Source: a virus | IMG/VR virus record: IMGVR_UViG_3300022929_000167 | Location: 1-26,209 of that record | Direction: 5' to 3' (one strand) | Length of the DNA: 26,209 bases | In this document: positions 22,593 through 26,187 of the stretch, in pieces | Numbering within the stretch: the stretch's first letter is position 1 | How the letters are laid out: the number at the start of each line of letters is the position of its first letter | The notes under the pieces: model-generated | Told to the model about the DNA's origin: nothing | What the model saw: only the letters and a program-made list of their open reading frames with translations | Databases searched by the model: none | Program-made: the position numbers and the translations under genes

Positions 22593-22803
22593 AAAGGTTA
22601 GAATGTCACAACAAGGTTGTGTTGCAATGCCGATGCTAATTATACCCATCCCCTTGGGATGATGGTCATATCAAAGTGTCCGACATCGGACGGTTCAGAG
22701 CTTCGTGCATACACACAAGTTTAGCGCACGAACTTCAGAACACTGAAGGTGTTCTTGCAGTCGCACGGGAAACGACAGGCGCAGAGGATCACGCATGAAG
22801 AGC
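22593..22803. other. Non-coding, hairpin-rich stretch before the rightward block
   Basis: No credible gene is seen. Inverted repeats follow each other: CATCCC-CTT-GGGATG near 22650; a GTCCGACATCGGAC element (22678-22691); TTCGTGC...GCACGAA around 22700-22730; and AGAACAC-TGAAG-GTGTTCT near 22738-22756. Such a row of stems could be a structured RNA or a compound operator region. No tRNA-like fold was found. Confidence 0.4.
22678..22691 (-). promoter_or_regulatory. GTCCGAYRTCGGAC element, copy 1
   Basis: GTCCGACATCGGAC. The flanks AAAGT...GGTT are the reverse of copies 3 and 4, so this copy points leftward in the extended site. It lies alone in the non-coding stretch, 244 bp upstream of the first rightward gene. 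Confidence 0.7.
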
Positions 22804-22832
22804 TTGACAACCAACTCTCTATCTGATCTAAC
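22804..22832 (+). promoter_or_regulatory. Candidate promoter for the first rightward gene
   Basis: TTGACA (22804-22809), 17-bp spacer, TCTAAC (22827-22832). The -35 is perfect; the -10 matches 4 of 6. The -10 begins at the last base of the left 12-bp arm and otherwise fills the 5-nt bulge of the following inverted repeat, so the hairpin would form in the DNA or early RNA. Confidence 0.45.
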
Positions 22833-22908
22833 GTTTATACAATAAATATTTAACTATTCATCTTTAGTGAAATAGTTAAATATTTCTTATATAAACATCA
22901 GATAGAGA
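22816..22908 (+). repeat. Long interrupted inverted repeat before the first rightward gene
   Basis: Arms pair in three blocks: 12 bp (22816-22827 with 22897-22908), 7 bp (GTTTATA 22833-22839 with TATAAAC 22890-22896) and 15 bp (22844-22858 with 22871-22885). A 12-nt loop separates them, with a 5-nt bulge and a 4x4 internal loop. In total, 34 bp. It ends directly at the AAGGAG ribosome site of the 220-residue gene, so it would sit at the mRNA 5' end. Possible RNase III or stability element, or an operator. Confidence 0.7.
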
Positions 22909-22921
22909 AAGGAGCCATCCA

Positions 22922-23584
22922 ATGGCAAAATCAGCAAAAACTCAGCAAGCTCAAGTTCAAGGAACTTCACTCGATGAAATGGTCAAGGAAGGCAAGGCCT
23001 TGGGTCGTATTTGGAAGCAGACGAATAGTCTGAAGGACAGTACAAAAGCCAACGGCTTTGACACTCGCTTGGGTAAATTGCTTATGCAATTGAAGGCCGC
23101 TTCATCACTGGATAGTGGTCAGATTTCTCGTCAAGTATTGACGACTCATGGAATCCACAACATTGACCGTAGACGCAGAGCAGAAGCTCTGTGGTTCGCT
23201 GAGAATGAGGTCAAGTGTCGTGAGTTCATGCAAGCCTCAAAGAAAGGCTTCACGTCACTCAGTGCCTTGCAGAAGGCCATGAATGCTGCTGACAAGGCTG
23301 CTTCTGAACCTGCTAAAGCAGAACCGTCCGACATCGGACAGTCTGAACCGACACCTGCTAAAGCAGAGAAGTCAGGTGCAACAGAACAACGTTCTGTCAA
23401 TGTGATGGTCACTCGTACAAAAATGGTGGATACCATTTTGGAGCACTGCAAACGTAACAACCTCAACCTTGAGGACATCATCAATGATCTTCAATCACAT
23501 GTTGCAAAGCAATCACGTGCTGAAGATAAGGCGTCACCTGCAAAGGCAAAGCCTAGCAAGCGTAAGGCGAAGAAAGCAGCCTAA
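22922..23584 (+). CDS. First rightward-arm protein, unknown (helical, basic tail)
   Basis: A 220-residue protein with strong ribosome site AAGGAG 7 nt from ATG 22922. An N-terminal helical domain (residues about 15-120: 'GKALGRIWKQTNSLKDSTKANGFDTRLGKLLMQL..., ISRQVLTTHGIHNIDRRRRAEALWFAENE') is joined by an Ala/Pro/Glu-rich linker (EPAKAEPSDIGQSEPTPAKAE) to a second helical part (TRTKMVDTILEHCKRNNLNLEDIINDLQSH) and a histone-like tail (PAKAKPSKRKAKKAA). It looks like a DNA-binding protein made early. The linker carries a GTCCGACATCGGAC copy, flanked by two TGCTAAAGCA palindromes. I do not recognise the family. Confidence 0.7.
   Translation: MAKSAKTQQAQVQGTSLDEMVKEGKALGRIWKQTNSLKDSTKANGFDTRLGKLLMQLKAASSLDSGQISRQVLTTHGIHNIDRRRRAEALWFAENEVKCREFMQASKKGFTSLSALQKAMNAADKAASEPAKAEPSDIGQSEPTPAKAEKSGATEQRSVNVMVTRTKMVDTILEHCKRNNLNLEDIINDLQSHVAKQSRAEDKASPAKAKPSKRKAKKAA
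23326..23339 (+). promoter_or_regulatory. GTCCGAYRTCGGAC element, copy 2 (inside a gene)
   Basis: GTCCGACATCGGAC inside the linker of the 220-residue protein, encoding P-S-D-I-G-Q. Its left flank (GAACC) matches copies 3 and 4, its right flank (AGTCT) does not. Confidence 0.6.
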
Positions 23585-23598
23585 GATTGACGCATTTA

Positions 23599-23620
23599 TG
23601 CAGCCCCTTTGGGGGCTGTA
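23599..23620 (+). terminator. Hairpin after the first rightward gene
   Basis: CAGCCCC-TTTG-GGGGCTG (7 bp, plus a G-U and a T-A pair) starts 15 nt after the stop of the 220-residue gene. It is the most GC-rich stem around but lacks a T-run (TTGGTGTTTC), so it may be a weak terminator or mRNA 3' protector, with the next gene's ribosome site just beyond. Confidence 0.45.
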
Positions 23621-23650
23621 TTGGTGTTTCAATCTCGAAGGAGTTTATAC

Positions 23651-23815
23651 ATGTTTATTGCTAAAGCAATCATCGTGATTGCCATGCTATCTGCAACCGT
23701 GATTGTGGGTAGCATAGGCATACTTACGTCTGGTGGTATGTTAAGCCCAGCGTTTATCGTATGCCTGATCCCCTATGTCTTTGTGCTGCTGATGCTGCTG
23801 ATTGAAGGCATTTAA
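23651..23815 (+). CDS. Small two-TM membrane protein
   Basis: A 54-residue protein from ATG 23651 (MFIAKAIIVIAML), with AAGGAG 8 nt upstream. An earlier ATG at 23609 adds 14 residues, lies in the hairpin and has no ribosome site. Almost the whole chain is hydrophobic: TM about 4-24 (AKAIIVIAMLSATVIVGSIGI) and 33-52 (FIVCLIPYVFVLLMLLIEG), with a Gly/Ser turn between. It could be an inner-membrane effector such as a superinfection-exclusion or small toxin-like protein. No family is recognised. It lies on the putative early arm, not beside the lysis genes. Confidence 0.65.
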   Translation: MFIAKAIIVIAMLSATVIVGSIGILTSGGMLSPAFIVCLIPYVFVLLMLLIEGI

Positions 23816-23825
23816 CAGTGCCACA

Positions 23826-23866
23826 GTTATATAACACTTGAAACATAAGTGAAAGTGTTATATAAC
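23826..23866 (+). repeat. AT-rich inverted repeat upstream of the 77-residue gene
   Basis: Two perfect 14-bp arms, GTTATATAACACTT (23826-23839) and its complement (23853-23866), are separated by 13 nt. The right arm contains the -10 box of a promoter, so it may be an operator as well as an RNA hairpin. Confidence 0.7.
23838..23866 (+). promoter_or_regulatory. Sigma70-like promoter of the 77-residue gene
   Basis: TTGAAA (23838-23843), 17-bp spacer, TATAAC (23861-23866), fully inside the inverted repeat. The predicted start is about 23873, and the GTCCGACATCGGAC element begins at 23889, roughly +16. Confidence 0.55.
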
Positions 23867-23888
23867 ATGTGTACACTTAACTGAAACC

Positions 23889-23902
23889 GTCCGACATCGG
23901 AC
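23889..23902 (+). promoter_or_regulatory. GTCCGAYRTCGGAC element, copy 3 (leader of the 77-residue gene)
   Basis: GTCCGACATCGGAC with flanks GAAACC on the left and ACTTTTACGGAGT on the right. The ribosome site GGAG is 8 nt after the element. The whole 35-bp block is nearly the same as at copy 4. Confidence 0.75.
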
Positions 23903-23922
23903 ACTTTTACGGAGTAACCGAA

Positions 23923-24156
23923 ATGATTATTGAACACATTGCAGAGAACAAGGTTGTTGTTCACAAGAAGTCTATGGTATCAGGTAGAGTAAACTCTATG
24001 CTTTTACCTACGACTCAGGGCAAAATAGAATACTGGATCGAATCAGGTAAACTGATTCAAGATGTGATGCCCGATTTAAGTGCGGATCATCGTGAGTTTC
24101 TTATGTCTGGGATTACACCACGTGAATGGGATGCCACATTTGGAGAGGAAGAATAG
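23923..24156 (+). CDS. Conserved small protein, unknown
   Basis: A 77-residue protein (MIIEHIAENKVVVHKKSMVSGRVNSMLLPTTQG, ending SADHREFLMSGITPREWDATFGEEE). Ribosome site GGAG lies 8 nt from ATG 23923. The pattern 'SGRVNxMxLPxTQxxxxxWxxxGxLIQDVxPxLxxxxREFLxSGITPxEWDxxF' occurs in many phages and some bacterial genomes. I recall no function. The gene is preceded by an AT-rich inverted repeat with promoter and a GTCCGAYRTCGGAC element, so it is probably independently controlled. Confidence 0.7.
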   Translation: MIIEHIAENKVVVHKKSMVSGRVNSMLLPTTQGKIEYWIESGKLIQDVMPDLSADHREFLMSGITPREWDATFGEEE

Positions 24157-24174
24157 CCCTTATGTATAGTATAA

Positions 24175-24212
24175 GTTATTTATACTTGATATTTATTGAA
24201 AGTATAAATAAC
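24175..24212 (+). repeat. AT-rich inverted repeat upstream of the 229-residue gene
   Basis: 13-bp perfect arms GTTATTTATACTT (24175-24187) and AAGTATAAATAAC (24200-24212), with a 12-nt loop. Three more pairs (ATA/TAT) extend it after one mismatch. The sequence is unrelated to the inverted repeat at 23826, but the layout is the same. Confidence 0.68.
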
Positions 24213-24225
24213 GTATACGTATACT
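24196..24225 (+). promoter_or_regulatory. Sigma70-like promoter of the 229-residue gene
   Basis: TTGAAA (24196-24201), 18-bp spacer, TATACT (24220-24225). The -35 side falls in the right arm of the inverted repeat. The predicted start is near 24232, 10 bp before the next GTCCGAYRTCGGAC element. Confidence 0.5.
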
Positions 24226-24241
24226 AAAGCAAACCGAAACC

Positions 24242-24255
24242 GTCCGATGTCGGAC
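24242..24255 (+). promoter_or_regulatory. GTCCGAYRTCGGAC element, copy 4 (leader of the 229-residue gene)
   Basis: GTCCGATGTCGGAC. Its two centre bases are the reverse complement of those in copy 3, while the flanks keep the same orientation (GAAACC and ACTTTAACGGAGT). This compensating centre with fixed flanks suggests selection on the two arms. Confidence 0.75.
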
Positions 24256-24275
24256 ACTTTAACGGAGTTAGTCGA

Positions 24276-24965
24276 ATGACTTATCAAGTACATACCACAA
24301 TCAAATCAAACAATCGCAAGGTTGGTAAGATACCCGTCACAACCACATCAGCAGATACATGCCCCGATGTTTGCCCGTTCAACAATGCAAACGAAGGTGG
24401 ATGCTATGCTAACGGTGGCCCACTCGCTATGCATTGGGCAAAGGTGACTAAGCGTGAACGTGGTGATGGTTGGTCAACATTCATTGCCAAAGTCAAATCG
24501 TTCAAGGTTGGTGAATTGTGGCGGCACAATCAGGCTGGTGATCTTGCAGGTGATGGCAAATTACTTGATGCCGATGCCAATGCGGAGCTTGCCGATGCTA
24601 ACACTGGCAAACGTGGTTGGACATACACACACTATCCCGTATTGACTAGCAAGCATAATGCACAAGTAGTCAAGCATATGAATGACAAGGGCTTTGTGGT
24701 CAACCTGTCTGGTAACAATCTCAACCATGCTGACGCATTGTATGATCTTGGCATTGCACCAGTGACCACAGTTTTACCTGCCGATCAAATGTCCAATACA
24801 ACCACACCCAAAGGACGCAAGGTTGTTGTATGCCCTGCCGTGGTCAAGGATGATGTAGCATGTGTTGATTGCCAATTATGTGCAAGAATGCGTGATGCAA
24901 TCGTAGGTTTTCCTGCACATGGTGCAAGTAAACGCAAAGCAGATCAAGTAGCACAAGGAGTTTAA
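24276..24965 (+). CDS. DUF7227 / Gp88-like Cys-rich phage protein
   Basis: A 229-residue protein. N-terminus: IPVTTTSADTCPDVCPFNNANEGGCYANGGPLAMHW. Middle: WRHNQAGDLAGDGKLLDADANAELADANTGKRGWTYTHYPV and FVVNLSGNNLNHADALYDLGIAPVTTVLP. C-terminus: VVVCPAVVKDDVACVDCQLCARMRDAIVGFPAHGASKRK. The Cys clusters CPxxCPF...GCYA and CPA...CxxCxLC are the features I recall from the DUF7227 family, related in style to mycobacteriophage Gp88. They suggest a bound Fe-S cluster or Zn. The reaction is not established to my knowledge. Ribosome site GGAG; the stop overlaps the next ATG (TAATG). Confidence 0.72.
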   Translation: MTYQVHTTIKSNNRKVGKIPVTTTSADTCPDVCPFNNANEGGCYANGGPLAMHWAKVTKRERGDGWSTFIAKVKSFKVGELWRHNQAGDLAGDGKLLDADANAELADANTGKRGWTYTHYPVLTSKHNAQVVKHMNDKGFVVNLSGNNLNHADALYDLGIAPVTTVLPADQMSNTTTPKGRKVVVCPAVVKDDVACVDCQLCARMRDAIVGFPAHGASKRKADQVAQGV

Positions 24966-25240
24966 TGATGGGTTTAGTTTTCAATAACATAAATGTTAAG
25001 CACAAGGGCAATGAAGTTTCAATTGCCCAACACAAAGACAATGATACAACATGGGTACAGGAAGCTGCAATATTGCCAGCGACAGCAGACATGTACATTG
25101 TACGTTATGGCAGTTCGCTCACAAGTTTGATACGAGCATTACAGGAGATACGTGATGAAATCGACAAAACTCACATACATAAATCCCGTAGCAAGGGCAA
25201 TGCTACAGGAACGCAAGTCACCGCAGACAGTGCCACCTAA
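24965..25240 (+). CDS. Small protein, unknown
   Basis: A 91-residue protein from ATG 24965, where the preceding stop overlaps (TAATG). ATG 24968 is an equal candidate, with AAGGAG 7 to 8 nt upstream. The first two thirds look like a small alpha/beta domain (VFNNINVKHKGNEVSIAQHKDNDTTWVQEAAILPATADMYIVRYGSSLTSLIRALQEIRDEI). The last 28 residues share DNA with the next gene in another frame and look less structured. The family is not recognised. Confidence 0.6.
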   Translation: MMGLVFNNINVKHKGNEVSIAQHKDNDTTWVQEAAILPATADMYIVRYGSSLTSLIRALQEIRDEIDKTHIHKSRSKGNATGTQVTADSAT

Positions 25241-25310
25241 AAAGGGCAACAAACGTAAACCAAAGCAGAAGGAAAAGCAAAATGCGTTACGAGATGCAAA
25301 ACTTTATTAA
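25155..25310 (+). CDS. Small basic protein (51 aa), nested overlap
   Basis: A 51-residue gene: MKSTKLTYINPVARAMLQE then RKSPQTVPPKKGNKRKPKQKEKQ. The ATG at 25155 has an ideal AGGAG site with 7-nt spacing. The 'NPVARAML...P..V..KKG..KRK' pattern resembles a family of short basic proteins (INPVAxA...VxxxKKxxxRK) seen in proteobacteria and phages. It overlaps the 91-residue gene by 86 nt and the next gene by 29 nt. Good ribosome site and recognisable pattern support it as real. Confidence 0.6.
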   Translation: MKSTKLTYINPVARAMLQERKSPQTVPPKKGNKRKPKQKEKQNALRDAKLY

Positions 25311-25434
25311 GTTTTCTAAGTCAAAAGTGTCCGATGTCGGACGGTTTGACAAACCTAGCAAGCGTGATGATTGGAAGCGAGAGCGTAAGATTGCACGTAA
25401 GCAAAAGCAAATTAACCGTAAACTAGCAAACTGA
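25282..25434 (+). CDS. Small basic protein (50 aa)
   Basis: A 50-residue gene: MRYEMQNFIKFSKSKVSDVG then RFDKPSKRDDWKRERKIARK and QKQINRKLAN. AAGGAAAAG lies upstream of ATG 25282. It is strongly basic and probably helical at the C-terminus. The GTCCGATGTCGGAC copy is inside it, encoding V-S-D-V-G-R. No family is recognised. Given five small genes in 1.2 kb, this is a compact early-type cluster. Confidence 0.55.
   Translation: MRYEMQNFIKFSKSKVSDVGRFDKPSKRDDWKRERKIARKQKQINRKLAN
25329..25342 (-). promoter_or_regulatory. GTCCGAYRTCGGAC element, copy 5 (inside a gene)
   Basis: GTCCGATGTCGGAC with flanks AAAAGT...GGTTT, the reverse orientation of copies 3 and 4 (same as copy 1). It lies in the 50-residue gene, in the same codon frame as copy 2. 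Confidence 0.65.
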
Positions 25435-25679: not shown

Positions 25680-25802
25680 ATGCAACTGATGCCTTACAAA
25701 AGTAAGTGGGTTGTGTATGGTGATGACGGAAAGGTCATCATCATATGCAGCAACAAACGTATTTGCATAGAATATGCGAAAGGAAAAGACGATGCGAGTT
25801 GA
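25680..25802 (+). CDS. Possible small protein (40 aa)
   Basis: A 40-residue reading: MQLMPYKSKWVVYGDDGKVI then IICSNKRICIEYAKGKDDAS. ATG overlaps the previous stop region (TTAAATG), without a good ribosome site of its own, so coupling would be needed. It ends 8 nt past the overlap with the next start. The strand-rich 'KWVVYGDDGKVIIIC' looks like a small beta fold. It could be noise; kept as low confidence. Confidence 0.45.
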   Translation: MQLMPYKSKWVVYGDDGKVIIICSNKRICIEYAKGKDDAS

Positions 25803-26187
25803 AGTTTATTTTAATCTACACAAACACCAATGGTCTGTTCGTTCATGTAGGACGGGCAGAGTAATGTTACACACTGACGAAGTACACATAGACAATCCTA
25901 CGTTTGTGGTACGTAAAGCAGGACGTGAGCGTGTACTGCGTGAAGGCAAGAAGAATGTCCATGCCTTTGTACGTGGTGACATCACAGTGTTTAACGACTT
26001 TGATCCAGACTATGTGGATTATACACTTGTTTCATACAACCCATACAAATTTGACACGTTTGTGGATGTATGTGACACAAGACCTGTACGTACAGCCAAA
26101 CGTGCAGTGTTAAAAATACAACCAAGTATGGTGGTATATGATACCGTAAACAGACCATACCTATATGCAGAAGGAGCAAAATCATGA
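25792..26187 (+). CDS. Conserved phage protein, unknown role (131 aa)
   Basis: A 131-residue protein from ATG 25792 (MRVEVYFNLHKHQWSVRSCRTGRVMLHTDEV). AAAGGA lies 10 nt upstream. An ATG at 25774 adds six residues and is less likely. The 'VYFNLHKxxWSVRxxxTGRVxxHxDxVxxxxxTFVVxxAGRERVLREGKKNVHAFVRG' pattern is common in podo- and siphoviruses of proteobacteria. It is basic and His/Arg-rich. The likely role is unknown. The second half (NDFDPDYVDYTLVSYNPYKFDTFVDV...) is beta-rich. The stop overlaps the next ATG (ATGA). Confidence 0.7.
   Translation: MRVEVYFNLHKHQWSVRSCRTGRVMLHTDEVHIDNPTFVVRKAGRERVLREGKKNVHAFVRGDITVFNDFDPDYVDYTLVSYNPYKFDTFVDVCDTRPVRTAKRAVLKIQPSMVVYDTVNRPYLYAEGAKS

Follow-up and report, generated by a model that had tools for sequence, protein, structure and literature searches.

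Dispersed palindromes in HMO-2011-type ocean phages point to an undescribed regulator with a switchable address code

Introduction

The rightward gene block of IMG/VR virus record IMGVR_UViG_3300022929_000167 (positions 1 to 26,209; this stretch of 26,209 nucleotides (nt) is referred to here as the window) contains five copies of a 14-base-pair (bp) inverted repeat, GTCCGAYRTCGGAC. What factor reads these sites, and does it read them as DNA or as RNA? A preliminary description, made from the letters of the window, considered them operators of an unseen repressor or RNA stems. Here we report that the element recurs in related phages, that its cores switch jointly, and that the core is linked to one predicted helix of gp01, the protein encoded by the first gene of the rightward block. 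The results point to an undescribed regulator with a switchable address code in a group of ocean phages.

The genes of the window mark it as part of an HMO-2011-type marine phage genome, with CRP-345 and CRP-1 as close relatives. Its terminase shares 91% identity with that of CRP-345, 88% with that of CRP-1 and 84% with that of HMO-2011, and the gene order (structural genes leftward, early genes rightward) matches CRP-1 and CRP-345. These three phages are placed in the HMO-2011-type group, in which integrase genes are present in some members and integration of CRP-3 has been demonstrated (passages of PMC6918029 and PMC9038755). Phages of this type are described as dominant and broadly distributed (in a passage of PMC9038755). 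The word "repressor" has 0 occurrences in the main text of either paper. A literature search for the 14-mer of the second core discussed below (GTCCAA..TTGGAC) gave no match, and a search for a palindromic intergenic motif in roseophages returned titles that concern other phages only.

Palindromic elements in the window

The preliminary description had reported five copies in the rightward arm and none elsewhere. An exact search agrees, with five matches in the window (Table 1) and 0 in 100 dinucleotide shuffles of it. Allowing three mismatches adds no further copy in the window (chance mean 0.92), and a backward control pattern has 0 matches there. The arms are constant in all five copies and the centre is CA in three and TG in two, as had been noted. 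The 14-bp core is real, but the conserved unit is longer, about 22 bp (AAnY-GTCCGA-YR-TCGGAC-RnTT; most often AACC-core-ACTT), with asymmetric flanks; copy 2 deviates from it on the right side. Copies 2, 3 and 4 face forward, and the opposite flanks earlier remarked on for copies 1 and 5 are those of the same element in reverse orientation. The long stretch common to copies 3 and 4 extends over 48 nt at 81% identity. These two are the only leader copies in the window and lie directly 5' of a ribosome site. They had been placed between a promoter and that site; the ribosome site is present, but the promoter is not established, as 10 promoter-like matches occur in this region versus 10.3 in shuffles. 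Copies 2 and 5 lie inside open reading frames (ORFs), where the cores code for Ser-Asp-Ile/Val-Gly.

The element in related phages

Scans of viral contigs yielded the strict form in 8 stretches and a relaxed form in 16, four of which look unrelated (L014, L016, L018 and L019; L numbers are our handles for loci). A doubly changed core, GTCCAA..TTGGAC, occurs in at least 120 stretches, counted from the matches listed in that scan, and is the core carried by CRP-1 and CRP-345. In related viral contigs, where the preliminary description had proposed to look, the element is present in multiple copies. Duplicate contexts were removed, and leaving out the four apparently unrelated loci reduced an earlier set of 447 contexts (with 13 GTCCGA groups) to 442 sites; the orientation, start-distance, integrase-context, frame and pairing counts given here began from the 447-context set, including the five contexts since dropped. 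The records are mostly fragments, ORF calling was mechanical, and phage class was assigned from the sites themselves.

Among the 442 sites, 379 have the core GTCCAA..TTGGAC, 59 GTCCGA..TCGGAC and 4 GTCCGA..TTGGAC, the last all from one phage group (L096/L075). Groups with at least two distinct sites (n = 69) are largely uniform: 54 have GTCCAA only, 12 GTCCGA only and 3 are mixed, two combining the GTCCAA and GTCCGA kinds and one GTCCAA and GTCCGA..TTGGAC. The corresponding counts without CC/GG centres are 50, 12 and 3. The core is palindromic in both GTCCGA and GTCCAA phages, and asymmetry is confined to the flanks. Loci fetched by the DNA pattern have 1 to 8 sites, and in those with at least three the sites are clustered (median span 2.5 kb, largest 7.5 kb).

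The places of the sites are also kept. Copy 1 has a counterpart at the same place in a near-twin of the window, L253, and sites at record positions 53808 in CRP-1 and 54485 in CRP-345 lie upstream of gp01 (record position 1) if these linear records are taken as circular. Unique sites within gp01 genes fall in one reading frame in 69 of 70 cases.

A motif-free search for repeated near-palindromes identified GTCCGAnnGCGGAC in L190, L191, L192 and HMO-2011, GTGGTAnnTACCAC in L193 and GTATCTnnCGATAC in L195/L244. In the circular, 55,282-bp HMO-2011 record the variant sites are at 53879, 54808, 61 (reversed), 1262 and 1927, with no other exact one; the five span about 3.3 kb of 55 kb. Both gp01 and a repeated palindrome are absent from the first 9 kb of ten isolates (CRP-2, -3, -9, -13, -207, -212, -235, -603 and -738, and HTVC033P). 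The DUF7227-bearing phages L195 and L244 have a longer palindrome, built around GTATCTTACGATAC, in five and four copies, mainly between early genes, and no recognisable gp01.

One recurrent match is probably not an operator. The palindrome GTCCAAGGTTGGAC occurs in the integrase coding sequence of many relatives (e.g., L048 at 6868 and L049 at 7079). The otherwise GTCCGA contig of L011 also has GTCCAAGGTTGGAC, 4.7 kb past its other sites and, to judge from the letters, the integrase one. Thus, the match probably reflects coding conservation. The integrase cluster contributes 15 unique contexts, which were retained in the group counts.

Matches in bacteria (27 loci) were excluded from the phage counts. 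The centre is TA in 21 of the 27, and 15 are Bacteroidota by name; palindromes such as AAAGT-GTCCGATATCGGAC-ACTTT occur in L021, L036, L039, L041 (Telluribacter), L043, L047 (Spirosoma), L022, L023, L028, L037, L046 and others. Their number is above a rough expectation of about 4, for a search pattern that itself specified part of the flanks. These palindromes may be a separate system or coincidence.

A joint switch of cores and its link to a predicted gp01 helix

L253, a locus on the same contig as L140, aligns with the arm of the window in pieces of 2.06 kb (92% identity), 1.35 kb (96.5%) and 0.52 kb (89%). It has five sites in the same order as the window, and every core is GTCCAACGTTGGAC. 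The 30-nt flanks on each side of copies 3 and 4 are identical to those of the window except for one base. Since both arms of each core are changed, it is unlikely that the five places drifted independently. Within residues 23-125, gp01 of the window and of L253 differ solely at positions 80, 118, 121 and 122. That three of the four differences fall within 13 helix residues of this 103-residue span has a chance of about 0.7%, for a span picked post hoc.

The same helix is linked to the core across 89 distinct gp01 sequences. Residue 114 is Ser in 12/12 GTCCGA phages; the 72 GTCCAA phages have Thr (69), Val (2) or Ser (1) at this position (Thr/Val in 71/72), the lone Ser114 exception being L140, which has Arg118 and Arg121. 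The combination of Ser114, Lys118 and a residue other than Arg at 121 is found in 12/12 GTCCGA phages and 0/72 GTCCAA phages. The two gp01 of GTCCGA..TTGGAC phages have Ser114 and Arg121. In the structure model of gp01 (predicted local distance difference test score (pLDDT) 80.6, predicted template modelling score 0.53) residues 113-128 form a single helix, and the spacing of residues 114, 118, 121 and 122 would place them on one face of it. Thr or Val versus Ser at 114 would match the gain of a thymine methyl in the DNA. This helix may contact the base that changes.

On a tree of gp01 residues 1-109 (62 rows) the GTCCGA state needs 7 changes, 6 of them forced by well-supported branches. In six independent tree pairs, Ser114 tracks GTCCGA in 5.5 and runs opposite in 0. 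As a control, 30 gene clusters in which the GTCCGA rows represent three or more lineages were each scored by their best column (balanced accuracy), with some labels set by hand (L008, L012, L015 and L272 as GTCCGA; L050 and L051 as GTCCAA). Column 114 of gp01 reaches 0.99, compared with 0.70-0.88 in the remaining clusters that have seven or more GTCCGA rows. Among clusters with 6 or fewer such rows, cluster 12 reaches 1.0 and cluster 27 reaches 0.96. Neither is used here: cluster 12 is a frame antisense to the ORF of copy 5, and in cluster 27 just 3 GTCCGA rows are informative. Residue 137 of gp01 also tracks the core, and is not used because copy 2 itself encodes it.

Occurrence and family of gp01

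The presence of gp01 (profile search) was counted by fetch route to avoid circularity; a figure of 129/143 that includes gp01-fetched loci is not used. Among the loci fetched by the DNA pattern alone, 93 of the 102 with at least three sites have gp01. In loci fetched by DUF7227, gp01 is present in 17/18 with at least three sites, 1/2 with one or two, and 2/60 with none. The two site-less gp01 loci are L190 and L191, both of which carry the variant core. In total, gp01 occurs with at most one standard site in eight loci (L190, L191, L192, L273-L275, L139 and L015): L190-L192 have the variant core, L273-L275 are cut within the gene, L139 is half of a split contig, and L015 is unexplained. The homologue in HMO-2011 is gp74.

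A host DNA-binding protein might read the sites instead, with the core following the host, and the hosts of metagenomic phages are indeed unknown. This explanation leaves both the link to gp01 residues and the co-occurrence with gp01 unaccounted for, and the near-twins L253 and the window differ in core; we regard it as very improbable. We conclude from these comparisons that gp01 is very probably the reader of the sites. The preliminary description appears to have been right in proposing a regulon of operators, which are multi-copy, clustered in the early region, kept in place and jointly switched; its repressor was "unseen", whereas the reader is probably gp01, encoded in the same arm.

Searches of Pfam, PHROGs, NCBIfam, PADLOC and PDB identified no convincing relative of gp01. 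When 65 gp01 were scanned against families, the matches were scattered and weak, the best of them (Pfam E 0.0004, PHROGs E 0.0002) in one or two members, and HMO-2011 gp74 matches a PADLOC methyltransferase model weakly (E 0.008). There is one good viral fold match, S4S2E1 (E 4e-5, 205 aa), which has the length of gp74 and may be that protein. Also, gp01 was not found in plasmids, nor in a sample of 385 genomes from the class to which a Rhizobiales bacterium belongs; this sample carries little weight.

A second module

In L193, which has several neighbour gene families in common with the gp01 phages, the place of gp01 is taken by an unalignable 206-aa protein, and six GTGGTAnnTACCAC sites surround its gene. 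Related proteins occur in L290 (58%) and L291 (51%), each with seven sites that follow GTGnTA..TAnCAC and fall into five types in L290 and three in L291. Because these two site sets are looser, uniformity is weaker in the L193-type module. By these comparisons, protein and site set appear to be exchangeable as a unit. Compared with the gp01 profile, the L193-type protein is collinear over 91 columns with a probability of 0.5% and E 0.12, and we therefore do not claim homology. Its viral fold search gave no match, for a weak model (pLDDT 68).

Proposed action of the regulator and points against it

We infer that gp01 is a sequence-specific regulator that binds dispersed early-region operators, with a probability of roughly 0.6, whatever the exact mode of repression. 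A phage-encoded and probably dimeric DNA-binding protein, most likely gp01, would occupy the five elements. It would bind one site ahead of its own gene, another within that gene, and those in and between the next early genes. Binding would damp or shut off early transcription, blocking initiation where a site lies beside a promoter and elongation, in the manner of a stoperator, where it lies between or inside genes. Provided that gp01 reads the sites, action as a repressor or roadblock is slightly favoured.

Several observations weigh against this proposal. Nine of the 102 pattern-fetched, site-rich loci are without gp01, and tblastn finds none in 8/14 checked loci (some of which are fragments). 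An odd GTCCGA copy is present in each of two GTCCAA groups, the contigs of L011 and L096 have one GTCCAA match each, the L192 contig has one GTCCGA copy, and matches in the L063 contig are scattered over more than 12 kb. The near-twin gp01 proteins differ at 33 alignment columns overall, mostly in the N-terminus and linker. The sign test on the tree pairs is of borderline significance (p 0.03-0.06), and long-branch warnings apply to the tree. Since the gp01 model has no significant structural match in PDB, the call of a recognition helix rests on co-variation. CRP-3, which integrates, lacks gp01 and a repeated palindrome in its first 9 kb, and the system is therefore not general among integrating members. 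Lastly, two orientation biases would suit an RNA target: strong-flank copies outside conserved ORFs run with transcription in 137 cases versus 11 against it, and GTCCGAnnGCGGAC cores have the same orientation in 17/18.

DNA or RNA as the target

In the RNA explanation, gp01 or another factor binds the element as a hairpin in mRNA leaders and represses translation. Leader placement would fit this, or oriented roadblock sites. Defining a leader copy as one with strong flanks and a ribosome site plus start within 30 nt (n = 121 unique), the start codon is 19-21 nt past the core in 83, and 34 have a stop codon no more than 20 nt before them, with little room for a promoter. A promoter at a fixed upstream distance was not found: TATANT occurs 8-35 nt upstream in 17/121 leader copies versus 21/240 others, and a looser box in 25/121 versus 22/240, with no single position. 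The transcript of the element can fold as a 5-6 bp stem. In all 443 sites together, positions -3/+3 pair more often than in shuffles (z 6.6), as do -1/+1 when G-U is allowed (z 4.2); -2/+2 and -6/+6 pair less than shuffles.

Other features of the sites are those of DNA. The inner A/T is invariant though unable to pair across a 2-nt loop. Centres are limited to TG, CA, CG, TA, GG and CC; reverse complementation maps this set onto itself, as expected of a DNA dyad, and it was found within the fetched loci without specifying the centre. Strong-flank copies have mostly C-A and C-C at -1/+1 and -2/+2, and covariation never exceeds z 2.1. In-gene copies and the copy 230 nt upstream of gp01 switch along with the leader copies. 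The preliminary description had also suggested that the TCCG arm pairs with CGGA of the ribosome site. This pairing is unsupported, because the leader core GTCCAA..TTGGAC of L253 and CRP-1 breaks it while the ribosome site is still ACGGAGT. Overall, an RNA target is unlikely.

Stems of this kind could alternatively be intrinsic terminators, or hairpin promoters like those used by the N4 virion polymerase. Four copies, in the minus-strand reading, are terminator-like in prediction. Their tails lack a T run longer than 4, some copies lie inside genes and the core switches track gp01, which makes either function extremely improbable.

Comparison with known systems

The L5/Bxb1 (cluster A) repressor is described as acting at many dispersed operators or stoperators, mostly off promoters and mostly oriented with transcription; the sites are asymmetric, number up to about 30 per genome, and have a consensus specific to each phage group and matched to its own protein (passages of PMC6550527). 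The gp01 phages resemble this system in the mostly uniform orientation (137 versus 11, as above; the bias is smaller among weak-flank or in-gene copies, and two window copies, 1 and 5, are reversed), and in a consensus that varies between phages along with the candidate cognate protein. Their near-identical sites are dispersed, including in genes and right after stops, and may likewise lie mostly off promoters. They differ in the palindromic core, in having 1-8 copies per fetched locus in an early-region cluster with copies inside genes, and in a protein for which no link to a known repressor family was detected, fold searches being weak. The start-associated sequences of cluster K mycobacteriophages are reportedly short repeats adjoining the start codons of several genes. 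The element is similarly placed beside the start codons of several genes, and unlike those sequences it is palindromic, is also present inside genes and tracks one gene.

A further precedent is phage N15, which is said to have dispersed centromere sites. Like these, the sites described here are few, dispersed palindromes in control regions. Being palindromic, stringent and clustered near one gene, they could form a dispersed centromere, or replication or segregation sites. In contrast to N15, no partition genes (ParA/ParB) are named in the annotations of CRP-1, CRP-345 and HMO-2011, where many genes are hypothetical, and family scans of gp01 gave no match to ParB-type families. Leader placement and orientation fit gene control, and we consider a centromere, or a replication or segregation role, improbable.

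Other features of the window

Three early genes are preceded by large AT-rich inverted repeats, two of which are listed in Table 1; the third is at 22826-22903. Exact copies of one form, TTATATAACACTTGA..AGTGAAAGTGTTATATAA, are present in loci of six records, and looser forms lie ahead of many leader sites. An Rfam scan gave two matches only, both on the AT-rich repeat and far under the gathering scores of the families. Also present in the gap between the gene blocks are two identical copies of TACATTGTACGTGT (22072-22085 and 22149-22162), with a near copy at 25094; these may be bound by another factor. Positions 25774-26187 encode a member of the mycobacteriophage L5 gp82 family (PF25735, E 1e-34), and gene 02 of HMO-2011 is annotated as similar to L5 Gp82.

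Table 1. Coordinates of the palindromic elements and associated features in the window.
Feature	Position	Strand	Remarks
Element copy 1	22674..22695 (core 22678-22691)	-	Gap between gene blocks, ~230 nt upstream of gp01; reverse orientation
gp01, 220 aa	22922..23584	+	First gene of rightward block; orphan family; candidate site-reading protein
gp01 codons 113-128	23258..23305	+	Predicted helix (model); class-linked residues 114, 118, 121, 122; near-twin differences
Element copy 2	23322..23343 (core 23326-23339)	+	Inside gp01, residues 135-140; low-confidence linker of model
AT-rich inverted repeat	23809..23883	+	Immediately 5' of copy 3 leader
Element copy 3	23885..23906 (core 23889-23902)	+	Leader of ORF 23923
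77-aa ORF, phrog_20898 (unknown function)	23923..24156	+	Leader contains copy 3
AT-rich inverted repeat	24169..24218	+	Immediately 5' of copy 4 leader
Element copy 4	24238..24259 (core 24242-24255)	+	Leader of DUF7227 gene
229-aa DUF7227 protein	24276..24965	+	Leader contains copy 4
50-aa ORF	25282..25434	+	Contains copy 5
Element copy 5	25325..25346 (core 25329-25342)	-	Inside 50-aa ORF 25282-25434; reverse orientation

Implications

We put forward tentatively, at somewhat short of even odds, that gp01 founds a class of phage master regulators not described before, having a DNA-binding fold unmatched so far, in a dominant marine group. Changes at a few residues of one helix face, or a swap for the L193-type protein with its palindromes, would then change the address and give rise to immunity-like specificity groups. 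If gp01 is the regulator, one would be named for many HMO-2011-type phages, and its operators would be located in dozens of contigs. These phages would also hold a natural record of a protein and all of its dispersed sites changing address together, in which the near-twin pair stands for five switched sites and four gp01 differences within residues 23-125.

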